Assembly (NCBI RefSeq): GCF_019598945.1
Contig: NZ_CP080598.1
Span: 2,914,001-2,978,000 of the forward strand
Direction: 5' to 3'
Source: Sphaerospermopsis torques-reginae ITEP-024
GTDB lineage: Bacteria; Cyanobacteriota; Cyanobacteriia; Cyanobacteriales; Nostocaceae
DNA: 64,000 nucleotides
Numbering within the stretch: the first letter of the stretch is position 1; each line of letters begins with the position of its first letter. Below are positions 3-15,003 of this stretch, one piece after another. The translations under genes and the position numbers were made by a program. The notes under the pieces were generated by a model. That model was not told the origin of the DNA and made no database searches. It saw only the letters and a list, made by a program, of their open reading frames with translations.

Positions 3-1391
3 AATAAAGATATAATTATCTCAGACGAATTAATGAGCGAGATTCTGAAATATGTTCAGGAATGGACTGGAGCAAAAGAATTATGGAATTGTTTGCGTAC
101 TCGTTTTGAAGACTTTTTAGAAGAAGTTATTTTGATTCCCACGCTGACTCCAGTTATTATAAACTATAATGCTTTGGAAGAAAGTATAAAAAGCTTAGAA
201 GATACTACTAAAAATAAAACTCAAAAGGAAATTGAAAAAAAGCGGAAAGAAAATCTTAGTAATCAGGAAAAATTGTCTAGAAAGATTAATGATATTACTC
301 AAGAAACAAGATCTCGTATACGTAATATACAACAAACCCTACAAACAAATAATACTAGTGATGAAAGGCGCAATAGTTTAGCACTGGATTTAAACAATAA
401 AGGTATGTCAGGTTTCTTGAACCTTTTTAATATTGTAGATAATATTAAACAGGACTTGCTTATCTCACTTGTTATACCTGTACGAGACGCATTGAGAAAT
501 AATTTACCTGCTGATGATTTAGAAAAAGACCTAAAAAAATGTATTAGTCCTGATAATTTGAAAAGAGTTATTGAGTCCTATAAGTTAGTAGTAACAAAAA
601 TTACCCAACTTAACCTTGATAGTTCTCGTGAATATTTAACGATGAAAGTACGTGCAAATGATAATACACAAATCAAAAAATATGAAGATATAGAGCGTAG
701 TGTTCGTAAGCTATATATAGTAATGCGAAATTCTATTCAAGCTAGATGTAGCTTCCTGTTACAAACCGAAGTACAAGAACTTGAAGAAGCTGTCAACAGT
801 TTAGTCAACGATCAAAACAAAGAAATTTATGGTTTTTGTATTTCTAGTGAAAAATCTGAAAACCTAAACTTCTATAACACAATTACCACTTATTTTGAGA
901 AGAAACAAATTGGTACTCCTATACAGCCACCTGAAGAACTATTTGAGATGAATATCTCAATTGATGAGAAAACAATAAAAGAAGAAGAAGTCGTCGGACA
1001 AACTAAGAAAACTACTCAAAAAGGTAGTTGCTTTAAAAAAACAGATACAGAAATCGTTGATCAAAGGGGTGATGTTGAATATACAGTTTTCTCTATCCCG
1101 AATCCAGATACAATGGGTAAACAATGGTCACAAGGAATTGATAAAGCAGAACCTATGCTATGGAATATTATTTTTAATTGGCTTACTCAATGCTTAGATA
1201 ATTCTGTGGAAAACTTTAGTAATTCAGCAACAGATGTTCTTAACTATACAAATAAATTACTTGATGATCAAATGCAAATTCTGGAACAAAACTTGCTTGA
1301 CTTACATAAAAAACAGTGGGAAGAGATTAGAACTCAACAAACATTGGCTAAGACGATATTAGAAAAATTACAGTATACTAAAAACAGGTGA
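3..1391 (+). CDS. C-terminal part of a dynamin-like protein (5' end outside window)
   Basis: The frame is open from base 3 with no stop before the first ATG at 33, so this is probably the tail of a longer gene and not a protein starting at 33. Just after that ATG the protein reads WTGAKELWNCLRTRFEDFL followed by ILIPTLTPVI, which resembles the segment after the GTPase domain in bacterial dynamin-like proteins. The rest is highly charged and helical: a Lys/Glu-rich coiled coil at about residues 45-105 (counted from the ATG), a hydrophobic patch near residues 128-150 that could be a membrane-contact paddle, and a C-terminal coiled coil. No GTPase motifs are inside the window. It is followed at 68 bp (30 bp if a TTG start is used) by a small membrane protein and then a lipase, all on one strand, so an operon is likely. 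The dynamin assignment is from pattern only; an unrelated coiled-coil protein is the alternative. Confidence 0.5.
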   Translation, partial: NKDIIISDELMSEILKYVQEWTGAKELWNCLRTRFEDFLEEVILIPTLTPVIINYNALEESIKSLEDTTKNKTQKEIEKKRKENLSNQEKLSRKINDITQETRSRIRNIQQTLQTNNTSDERRNSLALDLNNKGMSGFLNLFNIVDNIKQDLLISLVIPVRDALRNNLPADDLEKDLKKCISPDNLKRVIESYKLVVTKITQLNLDSSREYLTMKVRANDNTQIKKYEDIERSVRKLYIVMRNSIQARCSFLLQTEVQELEEAVNSLVNDQNKEIYGFCISSEKSENLNFYNTITTYFEKKQIGTPIQPPEELFEMNISIDEKTIKEEEVVGQTKKTTQKGSCFKKTDTEIVDQRGDVEYTVFSIPNPDTMGKQWSQGIDKAEPMLWNIIFNWLTQCLDNSVENFSNSATDVLNYTNKLLDDQMQILEQNLLDLHKKQWEEIRTQQTLAKTILEKLQYTKNR

Positions 1392-1459
1392 TTAATAGAC
1401 TTTTGCTCAGGTAAAAATCTTTGTATATCAATACTCTTAGTAAAGTGATTTTAAAAGTT

Positions 1460-2032
1460 ATGAATAGCATTCAAATCTATATCTTACAGAATACTACAAA
1501 TCCCCCTTATGCTTATACAGACTATCCATCTTTTATTCTATTGATTATTGCTATTGCAATAATAATAACTGTCATAACTTTCTTCTTTAAATCTAAGCCT
1601 ACCGAAAACGACCCGCCGAATACAAAAAATAATATTTTGTTTCTAACTATAAATCAAACAAACCAAAATCTTATTCATGATTTAAAAACAAATCATCAAA
1701 TTACAAGCAATAATTACCAAGAATTATTTTCTGCTACAAGAAGCCTTTGCTTCCTAGATTCAGATTCTGATCTTTATCATCAAATTAATAACTGGTTTAC
1801 TGAAATTCTGCAAAAACCTGAAAGTCCAGAAGGTAATGAATTTGACTTGGATATTTATATAGTGAAAATCGTTTTAGATCATAATTATCCTAAATTTCAA
1901 TTTGAAGCAACCTTTTTAGAAAAAATAGATTATTTTAAACGAATACCTGAAAATTCACAAGAGGTTCTTATCTCTCCTCGCTTATCTCCTCAAGATTATC
2001 AAAGTCAAAGCAAACATTTTTACAGAAAATAA
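1460..2032 (+). CDS. small single-pass membrane protein, unknown function
   Basis: I do not recognise this 190-residue protein. An ATG at 1460 is chosen; a TTG at 1421 in the same frame would add 13 residues, and neither has a clear ribosome binding site. One strong hydrophobic segment (FILLIIAIAIIITVITFFF, residues about 25-43) is followed by KSKP and a soluble polar domain of about 140 residues rich in Asn, Gln and Asp, so a cytoplasmic tail on a membrane anchor is the simplest topology. It sits between the dynamin-like gene and the lipase gene with 30 bp to the latter, which suggests the three are co-transcribed and may act together at a membrane. Confidence 0.6.
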   Translation: MNSIQIYILQNTTNPPYAYTDYPSFILLIIAIAIIITVITFFFKSKPTENDPPNTKNNILFLTINQTNQNLIHDLKTNHQITSNNYQELFSATRSLCFLDSDSDLYHQINNWFTEILQKPESPEGNEFDLDIYIVKIVLDHNYPKFQFEATFLEKIDYFKRIPENSQEVLISPRLSPQDYQSQSKHFYRK

Positions 2033-2062
2033 TACAACTTAAAAATAGAGGTTAAGAAAATA

Positions 2063-3820
2063 ATGTCCAATATTTTAACAGATGAAGAATTAGAACTATC
2101 TCTCATACTTGCCAAAATTTCTAGTTTAACTTACTCTCAAGAGTTTATTTCGGAAAACATAGAAAATCATACTGGAGTTGAGAATGGTAAAGTATTCTAT
2201 CTCCAAAATGATAATAAATGGGGTATATTAGTTTTTTTAGCAACTTATAGTAAGTACAGCATTATATCTTTTAAAGGAACAGACACTATCAATGATTGGA
2301 AAACAAATCTTCAGTTTTTTCAAAGAGAAAATGGCTCAGAAGGTAATGTTCACAATGGCTTTTACCAGGCAGTTAACAAAAATTGGGAACAATTATTAAA
2401 AGAAATACAAAAGCATCAAGACAAGTTTAATAATAAACAAAATAAAGAAATATTATTAACTGGGCATAGTCTTGGTGGCGCATTAGCTATTATTACAGCT
2501 TCTAGGCTCAATTCTCTTGCTGAGTTTACTGGAAAGATTAAAGGGGTATATACCTACGGTGCTCCCCGTGTTGGTAATAAGGACTTTAAACAGCAATATA
2601 AACCGAAACATTACCGCTTTGAATATGGTAATGATCCTGTACCATCTGCACCTTCACTTGGATTTGAGCATACTGGAGACAAGTATTATCTACCAAAAAA
2701 CGAGCTAACAATTCAGAAAAATTCTCAATGTACTAAAGCTTATCAACTTCATATTAACGTATTAGGAGGAATATTTAAAATAGGTCTGGCAACTATTTTA
2801 CCATCAACCGGGAACTCCATAAAACATATATCTAAATTATTTGATGATGTGAGGGGATATATTAATGATCATGATATTGAAAGATATATTGAGCATCTTC
2901 AAAACTACAAATATTTCTTACAACTTATTACAGGTTTAGAAAATGGCTCACTCAAACGGTATGGAAATTTAATTCAAGACATTACAACTAAAAAAATCGT
3001 TTGCTACTTACTAGAATCAAAAATATTTCCTATACAAGATGGATTAGTCTATGTAAATGAAAGATTCAATGAATTCCAACAAGATTTGACTAATTTGCGA
3101 GGAAAAATTGATCTTCTTTATGAAGATCAATTACTTAAAGAGGTATCAAAATTAAAAGCGGCGATTGAGACTCGATGTGATTTTCCTACAACACCTGCGC
3201 CTCAGACTTTACAACCTGTATCTGAGGTAAGACACTTTTTCTCAAAAAAAATACATGAGATTACTCCTAGTATAAAAGATATACTAACTGCTCATACACT
3301 CTTTAAAGCATGGGCAATTGCAACAGCAGTACGAGGGTATATACTATTAGAAATAGGTAAGATTCCAAAGGCAGTTTCAGTTACCCAAGAAGAGATTAAC
3401 AACTTCAGAGATACTGTAACTAAGTGGGTTGATACATTTCTATATGATAAGCAATGTCCATACATATCTACAGCCTATCGTTTTACTGCTCCTATCTTTG
3501 GTATAGAACGCGAACGAGTTGATAGAATTGCTTATATATCATCGCAAGATAGATCATTATCTCAAAATGAAATAGAAGATAAAATTATTGATGTAGAAGT
3601 CGAAGTAACAATGGATTACTTTTCCAAAAAATACGATGAAAAATGGATACAAGAACAAATAGAAATAGTTGGGTATCTTGATAATTGGAGTGAATTATTA
3701 GCTAGATTAGAAGGCTTACTTGCTTTTGCACAACTATGTCAAGATAAGGAAGTCAATAGCAGTCGTGATATTCTTCCAGGTGATGATGCTACACCAGGTT
3801 TATATCTTATAGAGATGTAA
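2063..3820 (+). CDS. class 3 (alpha/beta-hydrolase) lipase with long helical C-terminal domain
   Basis: A 585-residue protein whose first about 230 residues form a lipase class 3 domain: SFKGTDTINDWKTN (oxyanion-region motif), then TGHSLGGALA with the nucleophile Ser136, Asp191 in GNDPVP and His203 in FEHTGD as a complete catalytic triad. The remaining 350 residues have no domain I recognise; they are mostly helical and carry many charged residues. No signal peptide is visible, so the enzyme is probably cytoplasmic and may act on the inner leaflet of a membrane. The ATG has GAGG 12 bases upstream. It is the last gene of a three-gene same-strand cluster with a dynamin-like and a membrane protein. 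The substrate (phospholipid, galactolipid or other ester) cannot be told from sequence. Confidence 0.8.
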   Translation: MSNILTDEELELSLILAKISSLTYSQEFISENIENHTGVENGKVFYLQNDNKWGILVFLATYSKYSIISFKGTDTINDWKTNLQFFQRENGSEGNVHNGFYQAVNKNWEQLLKEIQKHQDKFNNKQNKEILLTGHSLGGALAIITASRLNSLAEFTGKIKGVYTYGAPRVGNKDFKQQYKPKHYRFEYGNDPVPSAPSLGFEHTGDKYYLPKNELTIQKNSQCTKAYQLHINVLGGIFKIGLATILPSTGNSIKHISKLFDDVRGYINDHDIERYIEHLQNYKYFLQLITGLENGSLKRYGNLIQDITTKKIVCYLLESKIFPIQDGLVYVNERFNEFQQDLTNLRGKIDLLYEDQLLKEVSKLKAAIETRCDFPTTPAPQTLQPVSEVRHFFSKKIHEITPSIKDILTAHTLFKAWAIATAVRGYILLEIGKIPKAVSVTQEEINNFRDTVTKWVDTFLYDKQCPYISTAYRFTAPIFGIERERVDRIAYISSQDRSLSQNEIEDKIIDVEVEVTMDYFSKKYDEKWIQEQIEIVGYLDNWSELLARLEGLLAFAQLCQDKEVNSSRDILPGDDATPGLYLIEM

Positions 3821-3874: not shown

Positions 3875-4676
3875 ATGCCAACATACTTATACTTTGGTGA
3901 AGACGAATTCTCTCTAACTCGCACCATCAAACAACTAAAAACCCACACTCTAGATCAACAGTGGGCAAACTTTAACTATACAGAATACCCCCCAGAATCT
4001 CAAGAAACCATTGCTCAAGCATTATCCGATATCATGACACCACCAGTTGGGAGTGGAGGAAGATTAGTACACCAACAGCACATTACTGGGAGTTTGTTCA
4101 AAAGAAATATTGTTGCAGTTGGAGTCCATTCTCCCCAAAATTCCCTCAACAAACACACTCCTTATCACCAACACTCACAAACCTGACGCGAGAAATAAAT
4201 CAGTCAAACTACTACTGGAGTACGCACAGGTAAAAGAATTTCCTCTCATTCCCCAATGGCAAACCCAAGCATTAATACAGCAAGCTCGGACTTTAGCTGA
4301 CGAAATAGGTGTAACACTCACCACCGATGCCTACACAGTATTGATTGATTACACAGGCAATCATACACGACTGATATTCACCGAACTAGAAAAGCTCAAA
4401 ACTTATGCTTTGGGTAAAACAGTCAATGGGGATATGGTGAAAGAATTAGTGTCAGAAAGTGCTGCTAATAGCTTACAACTAGCCAACGCCATTCGCTTGG
4501 GTAACATTGCTCAAGCATTAGAATTTGTTGATCGCTTAATTAACTGTAACGAACCAGCTTTAAAAATTACCGCTACCCTGACTACTACCTTTCGCACTTG
4601 GCTAACAGTCAAACAGATGAAAATATTGATTTCACCTGGTAAATGCTTGGATACTTTAACTTTAAGCTGCCTCTAA
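3875..4676 (+). pseudogene. holA: broken holA (DNA polymerase III delta subunit)
   Basis: The first frame begins MPTYLYFGEDEFSLTRTIK and continues to GSGGRLV, the start of cyanobacterial HolA, the clamp-loader delta subunit. Near 4070-4085 the reading frame is lost, and the homology resumes in another frame as CSKEILLQLESILPKIPSTN and on through KPDARNKSVKLLLEYA to FRTWLTVKQM. The join fits a small indel that removed one or two codons and shifted the frame. The homology then stops at about 4625, well short of the usual 320-330 residues, close to the end of the higA gene on the other strand. Because delta is essential, a working copy should exist elsewhere unless the frameshift is a sequencing error; the missing C-terminus argues against an error alone. 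Confidence 0.75.
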
Positions 4677-5093
4677 AAAATCTCGCTGTAACGGATTTTC
4701 TGGGAAAAATACAGCAGGTGAAATTTTAAAAAATTCCGCAAGTTTTTGGATATGTTCAACAGTTAATTTACGTTTACCATTAAGTACATCAGAAACAATT
4801 GATTCGGTTTTAAAAATAGGAACTAAATCTTTCTGTTTGAGATTTAATTCTGTAATCAGAACTTTGAGCAGGTCTACTCCATAAATATCAGGAACTAAAT
4901 CTTGTTGTTGCTCATATTCATGGATTAAAATTCCCAATAGATCCAAATAATCTTCTTCCGCTTCGGTTAATTCTCCTTTATCAAGAAGTTTATCAACAAC
5001 TACTTGAGTTTTTTCTAAATCTTCTTCAGATTTTATGGTACGAGGAGGAAAAGACGTAATTAATTCTACGTAGCTAGTGTTTTGATTTAGCAT
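4662..5093 (-). CDS. higA: HigA-type antitoxin with C-terminal HTH
   Basis: A 143-residue protein with an acidic helical N-terminal half (EEDYLDLLGILIHEYEQQ) and a C-terminal Xre-like helix-turn-helix: LLKVLITELNLKQKDLVPIF, then SDVLNGKRKLTVEHIQKLAEFFKISPAVFF. This is the layout of the larger HigA antitoxins that bind a HigB mRNA interferase and repress their own promoter. The toxin gene lies upstream on the same strand with an 85-bp gap, in the toxin-first order typical of higBA. Its 3' end overlaps the broken end of holA, so the module may have arrived in, or survived next to, that damaged gene. Confidence 0.85.
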   Translation of the reverse strand: MLNQNTSYVELITSFPPRTIKSEEDLEKTQVVVDKLLDKGELTEAEEDYLDLLGILIHEYEQQQDLVPDIYGVDLLKVLITELNLKQKDLVPIFKTESIVSDVLNGKRKLTVEHIQKLAEFFKISPAVFFPENPLQRDFLEAA

Positions 5094-5178
5094 TTCATGT
5101 TGATGGGATTATTTGGTTAATTAAACTAGGATTAATAAACATTTATCCTGGTTTTCAATAATGGCGTTTTATTTCAGT

Positions 5179-5487
5179 TTAACTATCAAAACATTCGTCA
5201 TTTTTCCAGTTATCTTTACTATATTCTGCATGAGTAAGAAACTCACGAATATATATAGCTTTTTTCTTATAATTGATACAGGTTATTAATCTGTATTTGT
5301 TTCCTCCAATATCAAAAATGACGAAATTTTTAACTTGGTCAGGTGCAAAAGGTACAGTAGTTTTAACATCTGCAAAACTATTCCATTCTTGCAATTTCAC
5401 AAGTTTTATCCAGGTTTGTATACTTGCCTGAGCGTCGGGGTGCTTTTCACAAGCCTTCTTGAGCCTGGTTTCGGTAACGATTCGCAT
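5179..5487 (-). CDS. higB: HigB-type toxin (mRNA interferase)
   Basis: A complete 102-residue HigB-family protein, the family that cleaves mRNA on the ribosome. It starts MRIVTETRLKKACEKHPDAQ and carries the family core FVIFDIGGNKYRLITCINY, followed by LTHAEYSKDNWK. Full length and undamaged compared with the truncated relative at 18.6 kb, which shares LTHAEYSK-x-(K/N)WKND. It precedes the HigA-type antitoxin on the same strand, so the pair should be transcribed together from a promoter in 5488-5600 and autorepressed by the antitoxin. Activity is inferred from family. Confidence 0.85.
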   Translation of the reverse strand: MRIVTETRLKKACEKHPDAQASIQTWIKLVKLQEWNSFADVKTTVPFAPDQVKNFVIFDIGGNKYRLITCINYKKKAIYIREFLTHAEYSKDNWKNDECFDS

Positions 5488-7284: not shown

Positions 7285-8286
7285 CTATCCACAAACTGCT
7301 TGAAACTCGCCAATCATTTTAACTTCTGGTTCTAACCAAATGGACCAACGTTCTTGTACTTCACGTTGAATATGATTAATGAGACAGAAAATATCGCTGG
7401 CTTTAGCTCCACCACGATTAACGATAAAATTAGCATGAAGCTGTGCTACTTGCGCTCCACCGATTTGATAGCCTTTTAAACCAGCTTGTTCAATTAACCA
7501 TCCAGCAGTGTAAGGCTTAGGATTGCGGAAAACACTGCCACAACTGGGAAAATTATAAGGTTGGGTAGAAAGGCGATGTTGTTTATGTTGTTTGGTTGTA
7601 GCTATAACTTGTGCTGGATCTGCACCGGGTTGGAGTTGCAAGGTTGCTTGAGTAACTATCCGTTTTCCCCCTTGCAATAATGAAGTCCGATATTTGTAAC
7701 CTAATTCCGCTGGGGTGAGAGTTTCTATTGTACCATCGGGAGAAAGCAATTCTGCACTCACTAACATATCTGCAATACAGCTATTATGCGCCCCTGCATT
7801 CATAACAACTGCACCACCAACAGTTCCTGGAATACCCACAGCCCACTCTAAACCTTGCCATCCCAATTCTGCTGCTTCCCATGCCAAACTCGGAATAGAT
7901 TCTCCGGCCGCAACTGTTAATCGACCTGTTTCTGGGTCAAAATGCTTGAAACGGAAATGACGAGTAGCAATAACTAAGCCCGGTATACCTTGATCACTGA
8001 CCAATAAATTAGAACCTGCTCCCAGGATTGTTATTGGTAAATCTTGTTCTTTTGCGTACTCAATACTTGCTTGTAATGCTTCTAAGTTGCGTGGAGCAAC
8101 GTACCATTGGGCTGCTCCGCCCACCCTATAAGAAGTAAATGCTGATAAAGAAGCCTGGGTTTTAATTACACAGTCAGTACCGGGTAAGTAAATTACTTCA
8201 CTAGCGACAGAATTAATTGTTTGCTGTTTATTTGTAGTCAAAGCAGAAATCTTACAGACGTTTCCAGCAGCCTGGGAAGTTATCAT
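7285..8286 (-). CDS. murB: UDP-N-acetylenolpyruvoylglucosamine reductase
   Basis: MurB, the FAD-dependent reductase making UDP-MurNAc, the second committed step of peptidoglycan precursor synthesis in the cytoplasm. The 333 residues contain the FAD-binding segment [16 protein letters not shown], the [32 protein letters not shown] block, YRTSLL, and the catalytic-serine segment [26 protein letters not shown] and a C-terminal EPEVKMIG complete a type I MurB. About 30 residues precede the domain, slightly long for the family, so the true start could be internal. murC lies 125 bp upstream on the same strand, forming a cell-wall gene pair. Confidence 0.96.
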
Positions 8287-8410
8287 CGTTGCTTTAGTTG
8301 GTGATTTTTATTACTGTTTTACCGTAATATTCCGGTAGTAAGATTAACTAATGAAACTATTGCTAGATAAGAAATTCGCAAAATCAACAAAACCTAGCAG
8401 TGTGCTTCGC

Positions 8411-9871
8411 TTAGGATGTAGCCTGAACTGGTTCACGAAGTGTAGCAATGACTTCAGGAATCGCTTGATTCAAATTACCAGCACCTAAAAATAATGCCAA
8501 GTCGCCAGAACGCAGGTTTGACAATAAAAACTCGCACACAGAGGATAAAGTTGGTTGATAAATAACCTGCTGATGCTGCTTCCCTATTTCTGCTGCTAAT
8601 TGTTCACCATTAATCTGTCCTAAATCGGGTTCTCCGGCACTGTAAATATCAGTCAGGACTACTAAATCAGCATGGGTAAAGGATTCGGAAAATTCTTCTA
8701 AGAAGGTAAGTGTACGACTGTAGCGATGAGGCTGGAAGATGGCGACTACCCTTTGTCCTGGTCTAGCTTGGAGTCTTGCTGCGGCCAAAGTAGCACGAAT
8801 TTCGCTAGGGTGATGGGCATAGTCATCTATAAAAGTAATACCAGCCGCTTCTCCTCGGAACTCAAAACGCCGTCTTGCCCCTTCAAAGGTAGCAATACCT
8901 TTAGCAATTTCCCCAAATTCTAAACCGAGAGCGCGTCCTACTGCTACTGCGGCTAGAGCATTGCTGAGATTATGCCGACTCAAAAGTTGTAGATTTAATA
9001 CACCCAAGGCTTTACCTTTTTCCCACACCAAAGCTGTTGTACCATCAGCACGATAATCAATGTTGGTAACAGTATAGTCAGCGCCGATATCTGGATGTAG
9101 ACTATAGCTGATGTTTGGGTTAAGGCGATCGCGCACTGTGTCACAATCAATGCTACCTACTAAAATTTGGCAGCCCTCGGCAAATTTTTGGAAAGTCTCC
9201 ACTACTTCGTCTAATGTTTCGTAGTGGTCAGGATGATCGAGTTCAATATTGGTAATTATCCCGATAGCTGGGGCGTGTTTCACCAGAGAACCGTCAGATT
9301 CATCTGCTTCAGCCACTAGATACTTGCTTTCCCCTAATCTAGCATTCCCTTCCCAAGCATTGACTTCTCCACCGACTAAAATAGTCGGGTCAAGACCAGC
9401 TTGCAATAGCATATAACCAATCATGCTACTGGTTGTAGTTTTGCCGTGAGTTCCTGCTACAGCAATGCTATAGTAATCAGCAATTAAGGCTGCTAGGACA
9501 TCGGAACGGTGTAAAATAGGACAACCTAATTCTATGGCAGCTTTATATTCCAAATTACTGGTATTAATAGCTGTTGAACAAATTACTTGAGGTAAGTTAG
9601 ACTTATCAACAGGCAATTTTGCTGGTGAATTTAATACTATTCCATCAGCCGATTCTTGAGGACGAAAGAACTCCAGATTGCTGGCTTCTTGTCTACTAAA
9701 AATGTGAGCGCCCAGGGATTCTAACTTGCGTGTAATCTGATTAGGTCGCAGATCAGAACCTGATACTGGTAATTGCCGTTTTGTCAACACATAAGCTATA
9801 GCCGACATTCCTATACCGCCAATACCAATGAAATGAAATGGTCTACCGCTAAAATCTATCTGACTATTCAT
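8411..9871 (-). CDS. murC: UDP-N-acetylmuramate-L-alanine ligase
   Basis: MurC, the ATP-dependent ligase that adds L-alanine to UDP-MurNAc. The 486-residue protein has the N-terminal UDP-binding motif FIGIGGIGMSAIA, the ATP-binding loop AGTHGKTTTSSMIG (about residue 140), NIELDHPDHYET, the central-domain signature LSRHNLSNALAAVAV, and FIDDYAHHPSEIRATL at the start of the C-terminal domain. Length and motif order are normal. Start at the ATG before NSQIDFSG is supported by the family N-terminus beginning close to the Rossmann motif. It heads the murC-murB-ebfC run. Confidence 0.97.
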   Translation of the reverse strand: MNSQIDFSGRPFHFIGIGGIGMSAIAYVLTKRQLPVSGSDLRPNQITRKLESLGAHIFSRQEASNLEFFRPQESADGIVLNSPAKLPVDKSNLPQVICSTAINTSNLEYKAAIELGCPILHRSDVLAALIADYYSIAVAGTHGKTTTSSMIGYMLLQAGLDPTILVGGEVNAWEGNARLGESKYLVAEADESDGSLVKHAPAIGIITNIELDHPDHYETLDEVVETFQKFAEGCQILVGSIDCDTVRDRLNPNISYSLHPDIGADYTVTNIDYRADGTTALVWEKGKALGVLNLQLLSRHNLSNALAAVAVGRALGLEFGEIAKGIATFEGARRRFEFRGEAAGITFIDDYAHHPSEIRATLAAARLQARPGQRVVAIFQPHRYSRTLTFLEEFSESFTHADLVVLTDIYSAGEPDLGQINGEQLAAEIGKQHQQVIYQPTLSSVCEFLLSNLRSGDLALFLGAGNLNQAIPEVIATLREPVQATS

Positions 9872-10356
9872 CTTTTGTTCCTCTTACACCACACCACAAA
9901 ATCTTTAGAAATGACAACAAATGACACGCGTATCATAACAGGATTTGGATTTTTACAGATACTGCTCCTGTAGGATTTTCATATCTGAATAAAGGGTTAA
10001 TTTTTTACTTTGTTTTTGCTTGTTCAGAAAGATATTACCCTGACGAGAGAGTTTCTCTATTTCTGATATCTTTTTATGATTATTCTGAAAACTGGGGTAA
10101 CATCGGGAAAAAAATTCTGTCATGTTAAATACATATCTTTGATTGCTTTACTAGAAGTGGCTACGGAAGTCCTTGAGTTACAAACCTAATTTGACACTAT
10201 ATCCAGCCAGCAGGTGAATTGACTACAATAGTACATTGGCAGGGAAAAGATTATTCAACTAGTTGCAGTAGGAAATTTTAGGAGGCAGGAGGTAGGAAGT
10301 AAGAGACAAAACTTTACCAGTGTGCTTTACTTTACCTGAATATTCCCGCACATCAA
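9872..10356. other. divergent intergenic region murC / nadD
   Basis: About 485 bp between the divergent murC and nadD genes, expected to hold both promoters. It contains an imperfect hairpin near 10028-10074 (AGATAT...AGAGA/TCTCT...ATATCT). A short purine-rich repeat (GGAGGCAGGAGG) lies near 10279. No additional gene is supported. Confidence 0.5.
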
Positions 10357-10983
10357 ATGCAGAAACTAGCAATTTTTGGAGGTACATTTGACCCAGTTCA
10401 CTGGGGACACCTACTCGTAGCCAAAACGGCTTTGACGCAATTACATCTGGAACAAATAATTTGGATACCTTCAAAAAATCCTCCTCATAAACAAGCCGCA
10501 CTGTTTGAACATCGAGTAGCAATGCTGGATATAGCTACTAAAAATAACCCAGCTTTTACACTCTCACTGATTGAGAGAGAATGTTCTGGGACTTCATACT
10601 CTATTAACACCCTGATTGATTTATCTGCTTTTTACCCAAATACTCATTGGTACTGGATTATCGGTTTGGATGCTTTCCAAACTTTACCTCGTTGGTATCG
10701 TGGATATGAACTAGCACAAATGTGTGATTGGTTAATTGCCCCCCGACTGGTAGGTGGTGAGACAATAGCTCAAAGTGAGTTAATATGCAACCAAGTAGAA
10801 AAAAAATTTAGAGAAAAATCATATACAATTAATTGGCAATTACTACATACACCTTTAATAAGAGTTTCGTCAAGTATCATCCGTGAACTTTGTCGGCAAG
10901 GGTGTTCAATTGATTATTTAGTACCGAAATCAGTCGGCTTGTACATCGCCACTCACAATCTTTACACTAATAATTCTGAATAA
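10357..10983 (+). CDS. nadD: nicotinate-nucleotide adenylyltransferase
   Basis: NadD, which adenylates nicotinate mononucleotide on the way to NAD. Residues 7-18 read FGGTFDPVHWGH, the nucleotidyltransferase signature with the catalytic histidines, followed by WIPSKNPPHK (substrate loop) and a C-terminal RVSSSIIRELCRQG corresponding to the ISSTxIR ATP-binding motif. At 208 residues the length is normal. The gene stands alone; the upstream region is shared with murC. In other cyanobacteria a Nudix gene often follows, but none is seen here. Confidence 0.93.
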   Translation: MQKLAIFGGTFDPVHWGHLLVAKTALTQLHLEQIIWIPSKNPPHKQAALFEHRVAMLDIATKNNPAFTLSLIERECSGTSYSINTLIDLSAFYPNTHWYWIIGLDAFQTLPRWYRGYELAQMCDWLIAPRLVGGETIAQSELICNQVEKKFREKSYTINWQLLHTPLIRVSSSIIRELCRQGCSIDYLVPKSVGLYIATHNLYTNNSE

Positions 10984-11208
10984 ATTCTGTATTTTTTTTT
11001 GGATCTAACATTTTATAGTTATAAATACTCCTCCCCTTTGCGATATGATTGGGGTCTAGAACAGAATCAAAACATTTACTCAAATTTACTCATTGACCGA
11101 AAAAATCTAGACTTCAACACTCAAAGGTGTGATAATTACCCTGTTTTTAGGTAATAACCAAGCCTAAAGCACTTGCACAGTAGGGTGAGCTTTTTATATA
11201 GCAGTTAC

Positions 11209-11284
11209 ACCCAATCTTAACCCTTAGGCTGCGCTCAGGGTTAAAACCGAGGGAAGTCGAGGTTTTAAAGCCTGTGGACTGGGT
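11209..11284. repeat. structured palindromic element, predicted three-way junction
   Basis: Three nested inverted repeats fold together: an outer ACCCA (11209-11213)/TGGGT (11280-11284), an inner perfect TTAACCCT (11217-11224)/AGGGTTAA (11237-11244), and AAAACC (11243-11248)/GGTTTT (11261-11266). It lies in the 420-bp region between nadD and gap2, about 120-200 bp before the gap2 start. It could be a dispersed palindromic element or part of the gap2 leader; I do not recognise it as a known RNA family. Confidence 0.5.
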
Positions 11285-11404
11285 AGTGCCGACACTTCCA
11301 GAATGAAGCAGGAAGTAAACAAAGCTCATGAGTAATTTTGAGTAGGTTTTATATAACGGTCAACGATATCAATTTATAGGCATAAATACAGAGGGCAAGA
11401 CACT

Positions 11405-12418
11405 GTGATTAGAGTTGCAATCAACGGTTTCGGGCGCATTGGACGGAACTTCGCACGCTGCTGGATAGGTAGAGAGAATAGCCCAGTTGAACTTGTGGGT
11501 ATCAATGACACTTCCGATCCTAGAACCAATGCTCACCTGCTCAGATATGACTCGATGCTGGGAAGGTTACAAAATGCGGATATTACTGCTGATGACAATT
11601 CCATTACTGTCAACGGTAAGACCATTAAATGCGTATCTGATCGCAACCCAGATAACTTGCCCTGGAAAGAATGGGAAATTGATCTGATTATTGAATCCAC
11701 TGGTGTGTTTACCAGTAAGGAAGGGGCAATGCGCCACGTTAATGCTGGTGCTAAAAAGGTGCTGATTACTGCTCCTGGTAAAAACGAAGATGGTACTTTT
11801 GTGATGGGTGTGAATCATGAAGATTATGATCACAACGTACATCACATTATCAGTAACGCCAGTTGTACTACTAACTGTTTAGCTCCTATTGCTAAGGTGT
11901 TGCATGAAAAATTTGGCATCATCAAAGGCACAATGACTACTACTCACAGCTACACAGGAGATCAGCGCATTTTAGATGCTTCTCACCGGGATTTGCGTCG
12001 CGCTAGAGCAGCTGGTATTAACATTGTTCCCACTTCTACTGGTGCTGCTAAAGCAGTAGCTCTGGTACTCCCAGCTTTAAAAGGTAAGCTGAATGGTACA
12101 GCTTTGCGTGTACCCACCCCTAATGTTTCAATGGTGGATTTTGTAGTTCAGGTTGAAAAACCCACTATTACAGAAGAAGTTAACCAAGTCCTCAAAGATG
12201 CTTCTGAAACCTATCTCAAAGGCATTTTAGGTTATAGTGAACTTCCTCTAGTATCTTCTGATTATCAAGGTACTAATGAATCTTCCATTGTTGATGCTAA
12301 CTTAACTTTAGTCATGGGTAATGACATGGTTAAAGTAATGGCTTGGTATGACAATGAGTGGGGTTATAGCCAACGAGTTTTAGACTTGGCTGAGTTAGTA
12401 GCCAATAAATGGGCATAA
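11405..12418 (+). CDS. gap2: NADP-dependent glyceraldehyde-3-phosphate dehydrogenase (photosynthetic type)
   Basis: A full-length 337-residue GAPDH. The Rossmann motif [10 protein letters not shown] is at residues 6-15 and the catalytic Cys154 lies in SNASCTTNC, with [10 protein letters not shown] following. The segment [14 protein letters not shown] carries Ser where NAD-specific enzymes have Pro, and the cofactor loop [14 protein letters not shown] lacks a typical NAD-specific pattern, so this is the Gap2 type used in the Calvin cycle and gluconeogenesis. The GTG start fits the family N-terminus (IRVAINGFG) and is preceded by GAGGGCAAG. A structured element lies in the upstream region. Confidence 0.95.
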
Positions 12419-12436
12419 TTTAGGTGACAGGTGACA

Positions 12437-12511
12437 GTAAGAAGGCAAAAGGCAAAAGGCAAAAGGCAAGAGTTTATTCTTTCCAATTACCAATTACCAA
12501 TTACCAATCAC
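12437..12511. repeat. heptamer arrays (AAAGGCA, CCAATTA)
   Basis: Three to four AAAAGGC units, then four CCAATTA units, filling the short space between the convergent gap2 and thiL genes. Same class of short tandem repeat as elsewhere in the window. Confidence 0.9.
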
Positions 12512-13552
12512 CTAACTAAAATGCTTAAATCCTTGACTAAGTGTTAAAACTTGGTCGGGGATTTTTGCATTTTCATGTTTTAAGATCACTTCTGTTCCTG
12601 GTATAATCTCGCCGATAATGGCTGCACCTGTTCCCAGTTTTTGCACTAATGCTGATGCAGCTTGTGGTGGTAAACAAAGGACTAATTCAAAATCTTCGCC
12701 ACCATATAGGGCATAATTGAGCGATCGCTCTTGACTTAACCACTGATGAAAAACTAATGGTAGGGGAATTTTACTTGCTTCTAAAATAGCGCCTACTTTA
12801 CTAGCACGGCAAATTTGTAATACTGCATCGGCTAAACCGTCGCTGCTGTCCATCCCAGCAATTTTAGATTTTAGATTTTGGATTTTGGATTGAGATTCTA
12901 TAATCTCCCACAATAGGGGTATGACATCTAAACGTGGGTTGGGGCGCTGGTGTGCGGTGATTAAAGCGGCTTTGTCTTGAGTTTTGAGGTTTTGACCTAT
13001 TTCGGGATTTAAGAGCAGTTCTAAGCCCCCACGGGATGCTCCATGAATGCCTGTGACGACTATGGCATCACCTATTTGAGCAGTGGAACGACGGATAATA
13101 AAATCAGGGTTGGCTTGACCAAAGGCGGTGATTGATAAAGTGGTAATGGGCGATCGCACTATATCACCACCAACTATGGGTACATCGTATTTTTGTAAAC
13201 ATTCACTCATTCCCTGATACAGTCTTTCTACCCATTCAACGCTTAAATCTCCTGGTAAACCCAGTCCAACGGTGATACCCACAGGAAAAGCACCCATAGC
13301 GGCTAAATCTGATAAATTAGCAGCAGCCGCACGCCAACCAGCATCCTCTGGGGTAGTGGTGACATCACTAAAATGCACACCATCAACTAACATATCTGTA
13401 GTTACTACCAAAGATTGCTCTGATTCTGTCACCAAAACTGCCGCATCATCACCTATCACATCTGAAGGACAGAAGCGTTGTAATCTCGCTAAAAGACCTT
13501 GTTCGCCAATATCTCGTACTCGCAAATGTTCTGCTGGTAAATTAGACATCAT
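12512..13552 (-). CDS. thiL: thiamine-monophosphate kinase with repeat-derived insert
   Basis: ThiL phosphorylates thiamine monophosphate to the diphosphate cofactor. The 346-residue protein has IGDDAAVL, VVTTDMLVDGVHF, AAANLSDLAAMGA, VGGDIVRS, GMDSSDGLADAVLQ and YGGEDFELVL, all family signatures, in order. Between LLWEIIES and AGMDSSDG lies [11 protein letters not shown], encoded by a run of AAATCCA/AAATCTA heptamers (plus-strand 12861-12893) that has entered the gene without breaking the frame. The insert lies on a surface loop just before a conserved Mg/ATP-binding motif. Two adjacent ATG codons are possible starts. Confidence 0.93.
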   Translation of the reverse strand: MMSNLPAEHLRVRDIGEQGLLARLQRFCPSDVIGDDAAVLVTESEQSLVVTTDMLVDGVHFSDVTTTPEDAGWRAAAANLSDLAAMGAFPVGITVGLGLPGDLSVEWVERLYQGMSECLQKYDVPIVGGDIVRSPITTLSITAFGQANPDFIIRRSTAQIGDAIVVTGIHGASRGGLELLLNPEIGQNLKTQDKAALITAHQRPNPRLDVIPLLWEIIESQSKIQNLKSKIAGMDSSDGLADAVLQICRASKVGAILEASKIPLPLVFHQWLSQERSLNYALYGGEDFELVLCLPPQAASALVQKLGTGAAIIGEIIPGTEVILKHENAKIPDQVLTLSQGFKHFS

Positions 13553-13637
13553 TCGATTTTGGATTTACGATTTTGGATTTTGGATTAACTCCACCCTAAA
13601 GTGTAGAAGCTCGAAAATTTTGGATTTGGGATTGACG

Positions 13638-13706
13638 TTAGCGAAGCGTAAGCAGCGCAGCGAGTATTTTTCCGTCCTGAAGGATAGGGTTCTATACCAA
13701 ATTTTT
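13638..13706. repeat. dispersed repeat TTAGCGAAG...CGTCCTGAAGG (copy 1)
   Basis: A 69-bp segment reading TTAGCGAAGCGTAAGCAGCG then CAGCGAGTATT, CGTCCTGAAGGATAGGG and ending TACCAAATTT. A close copy lies at 46853-46920. Both copies are followed by TAAAATC heptamer arrays. Origin unknown; non-coding. Confidence 0.7.
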
Positions 13707-13707
13707 T

Positions 13708-13824
13708 AATCTAAAATCTAAAATCTAAAATCTAAAATCTAAAATCTAAAATCTAAAATCTAAAATCTAAAATCTAAAATTTTCGGTTCTTCCCCTGTTC
13801 CCTGTTCCCTGTTCCCTGTTCCCA
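13708..13824. repeat. heptamer arrays TAAAATC (about 10 units) and CCCTGTT (4 units)
   Basis: A long run of AATCTAA units (13708-13780) followed by CCCTGTT units (about 13794-13823) directly upstream of the next gene's ATG at 13834. The gene's promoter or leader must therefore include or lie within repeat DNA. Confidence 0.95.
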
Positions 13825-13833
13825 CTGAAAAAA

Positions 13834-15003
13834 ATGCGAACTATTGCGGAAATTAATGAAAAAATCAACCAAAAACGCGCCGTAGTTTGGACGGTTGAAG
13901 AACTAAAAAAACGAGTAGCGGAAATCGGTATCACCAAAGCTGCTAAAGCAGTTGATGTGATTACCACTGGCACTTTTGAACCAATGGAATCCAGCGGTGC
14001 AATTATTAATTTAGGACATACTGACCCACCGATCAAAATTCGCCGCTGTTGGTTAGATGGTGTACCAGCATATTCTGGTTTTGGCGCAGTAGATTTATAC
14101 TTGGGTGCTAGTTGTGCTGTGGAAACGATGGATGGTGAAGAACAGCGGGAACGTGGGGGAGGTCATGTAATTGAAGATTTAATAGCTGGTAAACCCGTAC
14201 AAGTCAGGGCTTTAGGACAAGTTACCGACTGTTACCCCAGAGCAACTTTTGAAACCACTATCACCAGTGAAACTATTAACCAGTTTTATTTATTTAATCC
14301 GCGCAATCTTTATCAAAATTTTATTATTGGGGTAAATGGAGGCGATCGCCCACTGCATACCTATCTAGGACCTTTGCAACCCCGTTTAGGTAATGCAGTT
14401 TACTCCAACCCTGGGGCAATTTCGCCCTTATTCAATGATCCCGATTTACAACTTGTGGGAATTGGCACAAAAATCTTTTTAGGCGGTGGAATAGGTTATG
14501 TAGCGTGGGAAGGTACACAGCACTTCCCCTTACAAAAGCGGTTAGCTAATCGAACACCCATTGGACCATCAGCCACTTTAGCCTTAATTGGTGATGCCAA
14601 ACAAATGGATGCGCGGTGGGTGCGGGGTTGTTACTTCAAAAGTTATGGACCGTCTTTAATGTTGGGTGTAGGTGTGCCACTTCCGGTTTTAAATGAATCT
14701 GTCATTGAACGTTGTGCAGTCCAAGATAAAGATTTAGTAGCGCCAATAGTAGACTTTTCTATTCCCCGTCGTGTTCGTCCTACCTTTGGTTTAGTCAGTT
14801 ACGCTCAACTAAAATCGGGCAGAATTTCCATAGAGGGTAAAGCGGTGCGAGTTGCTCCTTTAGCCAGTATGTTTCTCTCACGACAAGTAGCCGTAGAGTT
14901 GAAACAATGGATAGAAGCTGGCACATTTACCCTCACAGAACCAGTTGCTCCCATTCCTATGGAACGAGCTTTTCTACCCCAGGATCGTTGGGCAGACTTT
15001 TAA
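13834..15003 (+). CDS. homocysteine biosynthesis protein (HcyBio / DUF39 family)
   Basis: A 389-residue member of the HcyBio family, whose archaeal relatives take part in making homocysteine from aspartate semialdehyde and sulfide. Visible family features are TIAEINEKI at the N-terminus, VDVITTGTFEPMESSGAIIN, a Cys in LGASCAVETM, RGGGHVIEDL, FLGGGIGYVAWEGTQH and a conserved Cys in WVRGCYFKSYGPSL. The archaeal enzyme is often followed by CBS or ferredoxin-like domains; here the protein ends after the core. The gene is isolated, bordered by heptamer arrays on both sides. The exact reaction in cyanobacteria is not shown by the sequence. Confidence 0.85.
   Translation: MRTIAEINEKINQKRAVVWTVEELKKRVAEIGITKAAKAVDVITTGTFEPMESSGAIINLGHTDPPIKIRRCWLDGVPAYSGFGAVDLYLGASCAVETMDGEEQRERGGGHVIEDLIAGKPVQVRALGQVTDCYPRATFETTITSETINQFYLFNPRNLYQNFIIGVNGGDRPLHTYLGPLQPRLGNAVYSNPGAISPLFNDPDLQLVGIGTKIFLGGGIGYVAWEGTQHFPLQKRLANRTPIGPSATLALIGDAKQMDARWVRGCYFKSYGPSLMLGVGVPLPVLNESVIERCAVQDKDLVAPIVDFSIPRRVRPTFGLVSYAQLKSGRISIEGKAVRVAPLASMFLSRQVAVELKQWIEAGTFTLTEPVAPIPMERAFLPQDRWADF

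Follow-up and report, generated by a model that had tools for sequence, protein, structure and literature searches.

What is a dynamin-like protein doing beside a membrane protein and a lipase in a cyanobacterial genome? The question is raised by three genes at one edge of a 64,000-nucleotide stretch of the Sphaerospermopsis torques-reginae ITEP-024 genome (hereafter the window, G000:C1:2914001-2978000; the genome is a single contig of 5.25 Mb). Our analysis shows a conserved operon here, which encodes a dynamin GTPase together with a single-pass membrane protein and an effector related to JukB. The reading that we favour, to which we give a probability of about 0.58, is that the locus is a horizontally moved, membrane-targeting anti-phage cassette, in which the dynamin and the membrane protein would position or trigger an effector derived from JukB. 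In the Juk system, JukA senses an early phage infection vesicle, on which JukB forms tetrameric pores, and the effectors of Juk include phospholipases (review, PMC13282480).

Open reading frame calling in the window gives three genes on one strand:

3 to 1391, forward strand: gene 1, C-terminal 462 residues (reading frame open at the window edge; upstream DNA was added).
1421 to 2032, forward strand: gene 2, 203 amino acids (TTG start; alternative ATG at 1460).
2063 to 3820, forward strand: gene 3, 585 amino acids, a lipase followed by a JukB-related C-terminal region (Pfam, hhalign and alignment with other fusions).

Neighbouring genes are separated by about 30 bp, in line with the tight spacing on one strand noted in the initial annotation, and all three frames are open across 4.9 kb. 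The guanine plus cytosine (GC) content of the operon is 0.31, compared to 0.39 for the window. The start of gene 1 lies at genome position C1:2912881, 1,120 bp ahead of the window, and the gene encodes a protein of 836 amino acids, of which the ATG at residue 18 may be the true start. Its GTPase domain lies entirely outside the window and contains the motifs GTTSSGKS (P-loop, G1) at residue 84, DLPG (G3) at 195 and NKCD (G4) at 260; the Pfam Dynamin_N model matches residues 80-261 (E = 1.9e-14, 54.5 bits, cut-off 27). Judged by the G1, G3 and G4 motifs and the Pfam score, gene 1 is a member of the dynamin superfamily, and the upstream sequence thus bears out the membrane-remodelling protein that had been suggested from the window. 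Relatives align over approximately 800 residues, C-terminal part included, at 29-38% identity, and those in PDB are BDLP, Drp1 and mitofusin-type GTPases. A hydropathy scan found no strong transmembrane segment in the protein. A longer dynamin of 948 amino acids in another genome (locus L096) was considered as a possible fusion with gene 2; this was rejected, as an insertion inside the protein accounts for the additional residues.

Searches of 293 genomes of the same order identified full-length relatives of the dynamin with relatives of the third protein about 1 kb further on; the latter matches almost always cover the C-terminal half only. The third gene is adjacent in nearly all of the 36 genomes of the order with a dynamin homologue scoring above 200 bits. 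We fetched 40 loci and found 25 intact operons; the others are mostly truncated, broken up or interrupted at contig ends. In all 25, a single dynamin gene is followed by the membrane protein gene and then by the third gene, all on one strand. About a third of the inspected loci carry a decayed or partial operon, some of these being contig-end cuts. Scanning one genome per GTDB species returned 37 loci, mostly cyanobacterial, with further intact operons. One intact operon is found in an assembly placed in Myxococcota, where its GC content (0.65) is near that of its surroundings. The cassette is sporadic across cyanobacteria and present in a minority of genomes. The co-occurrence of the three genes, on which the initial annotation depended, is therefore established, and with dozens of genomes sharing the same gene order, a chance arrangement is excluded.

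The canonical third protein of these operons has 390-460 amino acids and usually no lipase. It consists of an N-terminal motif (GLLDGSMKRYGSVIR...GQIVRHLAE), a Gly/Ala-rich hydrophobic segment (IAAGASVLNLGVSIAGFAYMGYKLHQ), a coiled coil and a helical C-terminal domain, the helices of which are predicted with a local distance difference test score (pLDDT) of about 90 in a canonical homologue. The approximately 300 residues that follow the lipase of gene 3 have no convincing Pfam family; however, aligning residues 281-585 to the canonical family with hhalign gave a probability of 100, E = 9e-81 and 38% identity, with the motif GLENGSLKRYG kept. Three parts can be distinguished in this region:

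2921 to 3016, forward strand: remnant of the JukB-like N-terminal motif of gene 3, GLENGSLKRYGNLIQD...KIVCYLLES, about residues 287-318 (hhalign).
3014 to 3073, forward strand: deletion region of gene 3, roughly residues 318-337 (alignments with three other lipase fusions and with the family).
3074 to 3811, forward strand: conserved helical C-terminal domain of gene 3, residues 338-583, common to dozens of dynamin-adjacent third proteins.

Gene 3 has no hydrophobic segment and has lost most of the coiled coil, both of which relatives possess; it lacks positions 319-415 of the lipase-fusion model. The link to JukB comes from the family as a whole. PADLOC JukB models match 41 of the 43 family members (best E = 1.7e-16), including a canonical third protein at E = 3.5e-13; a homologue from Chloroflexota reaches 7.6e-23, and the JukB search was positive in none of 14 control genomes. 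Profile-to-profile comparison of the family with JukB-like proteins that have no dynamin beside them gave a probability of 99.8% (E = 2.4e-27) over nearly the full length. On these matches, what the initial annotation called an unknown helical domain of 350 residues is instead part of a conserved JukB-related family. We found no relatives of the C-terminal domain in IMG/VR and rejected a phage origin for it.

Several JukB-like or related sequences were seen in other settings. A stretch of an unannotated fecal phage record (MT835507.1:1014-1352) is 34% identical to the JukB-like N-terminal region, a weak match (E = 5e-6). On a Candidatus Chlorohelix plasmid (NZ_CP128401.1, L141:5962-7128), the JukB-like protein that gave the Chloroflexota match at 7.6e-23 is flanked by two helicase genes, with an N6 adenine DNA methylase nearby and no dynamin; it is possibly an effector inside a restriction-like system. 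The C-terminal domain is joined to an unrelated, zinc-finger/HNH-like N-terminal part of about 330 residues in Calothrix sp. NIES-4105 (L118:6987-8666), an architecture that may represent an effector swap or a rearrangement fusion.

The N-terminal part of gene 3 matches the Pfam Lipase_3 model with 110 bits (E = 1.2e-31; curated cut-off 22), and its core aligns to Thermomyces-type lipases in PDB profile alignments:

2264 to 2656, forward strand: Lipase_3 core of gene 3, residues 68-198 (Pfam, 1.2e-31).
2468 to 2470, forward strand: codon of Ser136 (this and the next three from the PDB profile alignment).
2633 to 2635, forward strand: codon of Asp191.
2669 to 2671, forward strand: codon of His203.
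2870 to 2872, forward strand: codon of His270, outside the Pfam Lipase_3 core.

The initial annotation had proposed Ser136, Asp191 and His203 as the catalytic triad. Ser136 lies within GHSLGG and Asp191 aligns to Asp201 of the Thermomyces lipase chain 1dt3, so that these two assignments are retained. His203 aligns to His215 of the same chain, a non-catalytic histidine, the catalytic one being His258; we rejected His203 for this role, although it is conserved. All four residues are invariant in 12 of 12 cyanobacterial class 3 lipases. Since His203 aligns away from His258, and His270, located in a DHxxxxY motif, is invariant, the triad is probably Ser136/Asp191/His270.

Most relatives of the third protein carry no lipase, and we rejected the lipase as the conserved effector of the operon. 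Among 193 genomes of the family there are four lipase fusions, compared to about a dozen lipase-free versions. The other three, from Scytonema hyalinum, Nostoc calcicola and Nostoc parmelioides, join a lipase to a complete JukB-like protein, hydrophobic segment included, directly behind the dynamin and the membrane protein; only the window copy has lost this segment. Judged by domain content, the third proteins form a natural series: a pore-like segment only, lipase plus segment, and lipase only. In trees of both the dynamin and the C-terminal domain the fusions fall into two pairs, the window copy with Scytonema and the two Nostoc proteins together, and the window dynamin and third protein stand on long branches. 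A single origin of the fusion is thus not shown, nor is it excluded for the C-terminal domain tree.

A hydropathy scan of gene 2 shows a single strongly hydrophobic helix at residues 38-56 (mean 3.2 on the Kyte-Doolittle scale), in agreement with the single-pass membrane protein initially described:

1526 to 1591, forward strand: transmembrane helix of gene 2, residues 36-57 (hydropathy 3.22; AlphaFold2 helix 36-57).
1628 to 2029, forward strand: conserved alpha/beta domain of gene 2, residues 70-203 (AlphaFold2 and family alignment).

The alpha/beta domain, presumably cytosolic, is predicted by AlphaFold2 with a pLDDT of about 90-97 for most of residues 71-190. It is conserved among 42 aligned homologues, all of which occupy the same operon position, and the relatives end in a Y-x-R-like C-terminal tail. 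Foldseek against PDB returned nothing for this fold at E <= 0.001, VIA-align matches in PDB were mostly over the N-terminal helices with none confident, and JukA models did not match.

The operon is bordered by broken genes. A truncated family B DNA polymerase gene (polB; L003:5792-6673) lies on one side, and on the other:

3832 to about 4620-4676, forward strand: broken holA-like gene (DNA polymerase III delta), right border (Pfam DNA_pol3_delta).

A sibling from the same genus carries intact counterparts of both genes on a separate contig of 255 kb, with order and orientation unchanged; the polB fragment is 97% and the holA fragment 94% identical to them (holA at G317:C2:182141-182934, 321 amino acids). 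Because the intact versions reside on this contig, the chromosomal stretch around the operon looks plasmid-derived. None of the three window proteins had a match in the sibling. Its polB-holA slot is occupied by genes for a STAND/HEAT-repeat ATPase, an LCAT-like lipase and a GUN4-domain protein (L251, G317:C2:168001-188000, 7652-14047), which looks like another membrane-targeting defence cassette, and its chromosomal site keeps a holA remnant together with a transposase and an AbiEii gene. Elsewhere, one operon copy lies on a conjugative Nostoc plasmid with Hma-like genes adjoining, one beside BrxL, PglZ and PglX of a bacteriophage exclusion (BREX) system and one near an HmaA-like helicase, so that BREX or Hma genes adjoin the cassette in three relatives; many other copies are on chromosome-size contigs. 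Near the window operon, a gene for a HigB-type toxin (Pfam HigB_toxin, 1.3e-25) and an adjoining helix-turn-helix antitoxin-like gene occupy positions 4662-5487 of the minus strand.

How might such a cassette work? A dynamin, DynA, has been found to protect Bacillus subtilis populations from phage (PMC8844932). In the model that we propose, the dynamin would assemble on a membrane altered by infection, be it the cell membrane where injection occurs or a vesicle made by the phage, and the membrane protein would recognise this membrane or anchor to it. Together they would place or unleash the third protein, which probably docks through its conserved helical C-terminal domain. In most relatives, the Gly/Ala-rich hydrophobic segment and the coiled coil would then insert and form pores as JukB does. 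The carrier in this genome appears to have gained an N-terminal class 3 lipase and lost the insertion segment, and the predicted effect is for this reason hydrolysis of membrane lipids, by which the phage compartment would be destroyed or the infected cell killed. A more specific version, which we hold tentatively and at somewhat less than even odds, is an immune complex controlled by the dynamin, where dynamin and adaptor replace JukA and the heads are exchangeable (pore; lipase plus pore in three genomes; lipase alone here).

The anti-phage reading rests on the homology to JukB, the defence context and the patchy distribution, and several observations weigh against it. Gene 3 itself falls short of E = 0.001 in the comparison with JukB, as the segment that would match has been deleted, and the only PDB match of the family profile, JukB chain 9jht, has E = 0.56. 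As structural proof of the relationship we rejected both a Foldseek search with a canonical third protein, in which all matches had E >= 0.1, helical toxins of the ClyA/Hbl type ranking near the top and JukB 40th, and a VIA-align Z score of 7.3 to JukB over 155 residues, which is within the range of common helical arrangements. With the PDB profile and structural matches weak, the argument for JukB is carried by the PADLOC and profile-to-profile results. No JukA was found beside the operon, and the sole match of the JukA model PDLC04113 in this genome is a weak one (E = 4.4e-7) to a YaaW/JukA-like gene 2.78 Mb away (C1:137609-138007). Operon neighbours match 289 and 88 PADLOC families in two batches, compared to 56 for random loci of some of the same genomes, a comparison to be read qualitatively only since few loci contribute most of the counts; as an indication of a defence-rich neighbourhood it is suggestive only. 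The proximity to defence islands that the initial annotation proposed to look for is seen in the three relatives with BREX or Hma neighbours, and only qualitatively in these counts. Its wider proposal, a membrane-targeting effector system acting for example in defence, gains from the JukB homology, the context and the patchiness, and loses the lipase as a conserved partner.

The same genes could serve membrane maintenance without any phage, the dynamin remodelling or repairing the plasma or thylakoid membrane, the membrane protein acting as an anchor and the lipase or JukB-like partner clearing damaged lipid. Cyanobacterial dynamins are studied for membrane dynamics (PMC9950537, PMC5827413), the PDB relatives of gene 1 point the same way, and in several cyanobacteria dynamin-free JukB-like genes lie amid housekeeping genes (L172-L178), which is also a point against an anti-phage role. 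We nevertheless consider maintenance unlikely, as the cassette occurs in a minority of genomes and is absent from the sibling, and as the plasmid and slot context, low GC content and frequent decay fit an accessory better than a housekeeping function. Lower still do we rate a toxin-antitoxin or plasmid-stabilising cassette, with the lipase or JukB-like protein as a toxin restrained by the dynamin and the membrane protein: the copy on a conjugative plasmid, the HigB toxin gene adjoining the window operon and the slot shared with the 255-kb contig speak for it, but a GTPase of 836 amino acids would be unusual as an antitoxin, many copies sit on chromosome-size contigs, and the inspected operons share no small antitoxin-like gene. 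There is an equally slim, perhaps slimmer, chance that the window copy is a decaying operon with a third gene made non-functional by its internal deletion. The loss of the hydrophobic segment in this copy only, the long branches of the dynamin and third protein and the broken polB and holA pieces are consistent with decay; against it stand the three open frames and the preservation of the lipase triad and of the invariant residues in the C-terminal part, which decay should spoil.

If the anti-phage reading is correct, JukB-type effectors are not bound to JukA and a dynamin GTPase can partner them; as far as our literature search showed, an immune complex controlled by the dynamin would be the first relative of Juk with such a driver. 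Immunity in bacteria would also be linked to the antiviral use of dynamins familiar from the Mx proteins of eukaryotes. The cassette is a testable defence candidate for cyanobacteria, and the series from pore through lipase plus pore to lipase only offers a direct route to test the role of the carrier and whether any membrane damage suffices.

Among known systems, the sibling's STAND/LCAT/GUN4 cassette shares the polB-holA slot and the combination of a large NTPase with a lipase, but has a STAND/HEAT ATPase where the operon has a dynamin and an LCAT-like rather than a class 3 lipase. Bacillus subtilis DynA is likewise a bacterial dynamin linked to population-level phage resistance; we know of no partner genes for it that resemble genes 2 and 3. 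Eleos (LeoA/LeoBC) also has dynamin-like GTPases, and its PADLOC models weakly match the GTPase region of gene 1 (LeoBC, 2.6e-07; LeoA, 1e-05), over some 70 residues around the P-loop; it encodes a LeoA and LeoBC pair, whereas the dynamin here is partnered by a membrane protein and by an effector of the JukB-like or lipase type. Having one dynamin, the cassette by its gene content is not Eleos. By membership it is not Juk either, as a dynamin and a new membrane protein stand where Juk has JukA, and the window effector carries a lipase in place of the hydrophobic pore segment. The third-protein family nevertheless matches PADLOC JukB in the N-terminal motif and hydrophobic segment, and the lipase of the window protein has a counterpart in the phospholipase effectors reported for Juk. 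The cassette probably acts like a Juk-type membrane attack in which a dynamin has replaced JukA.

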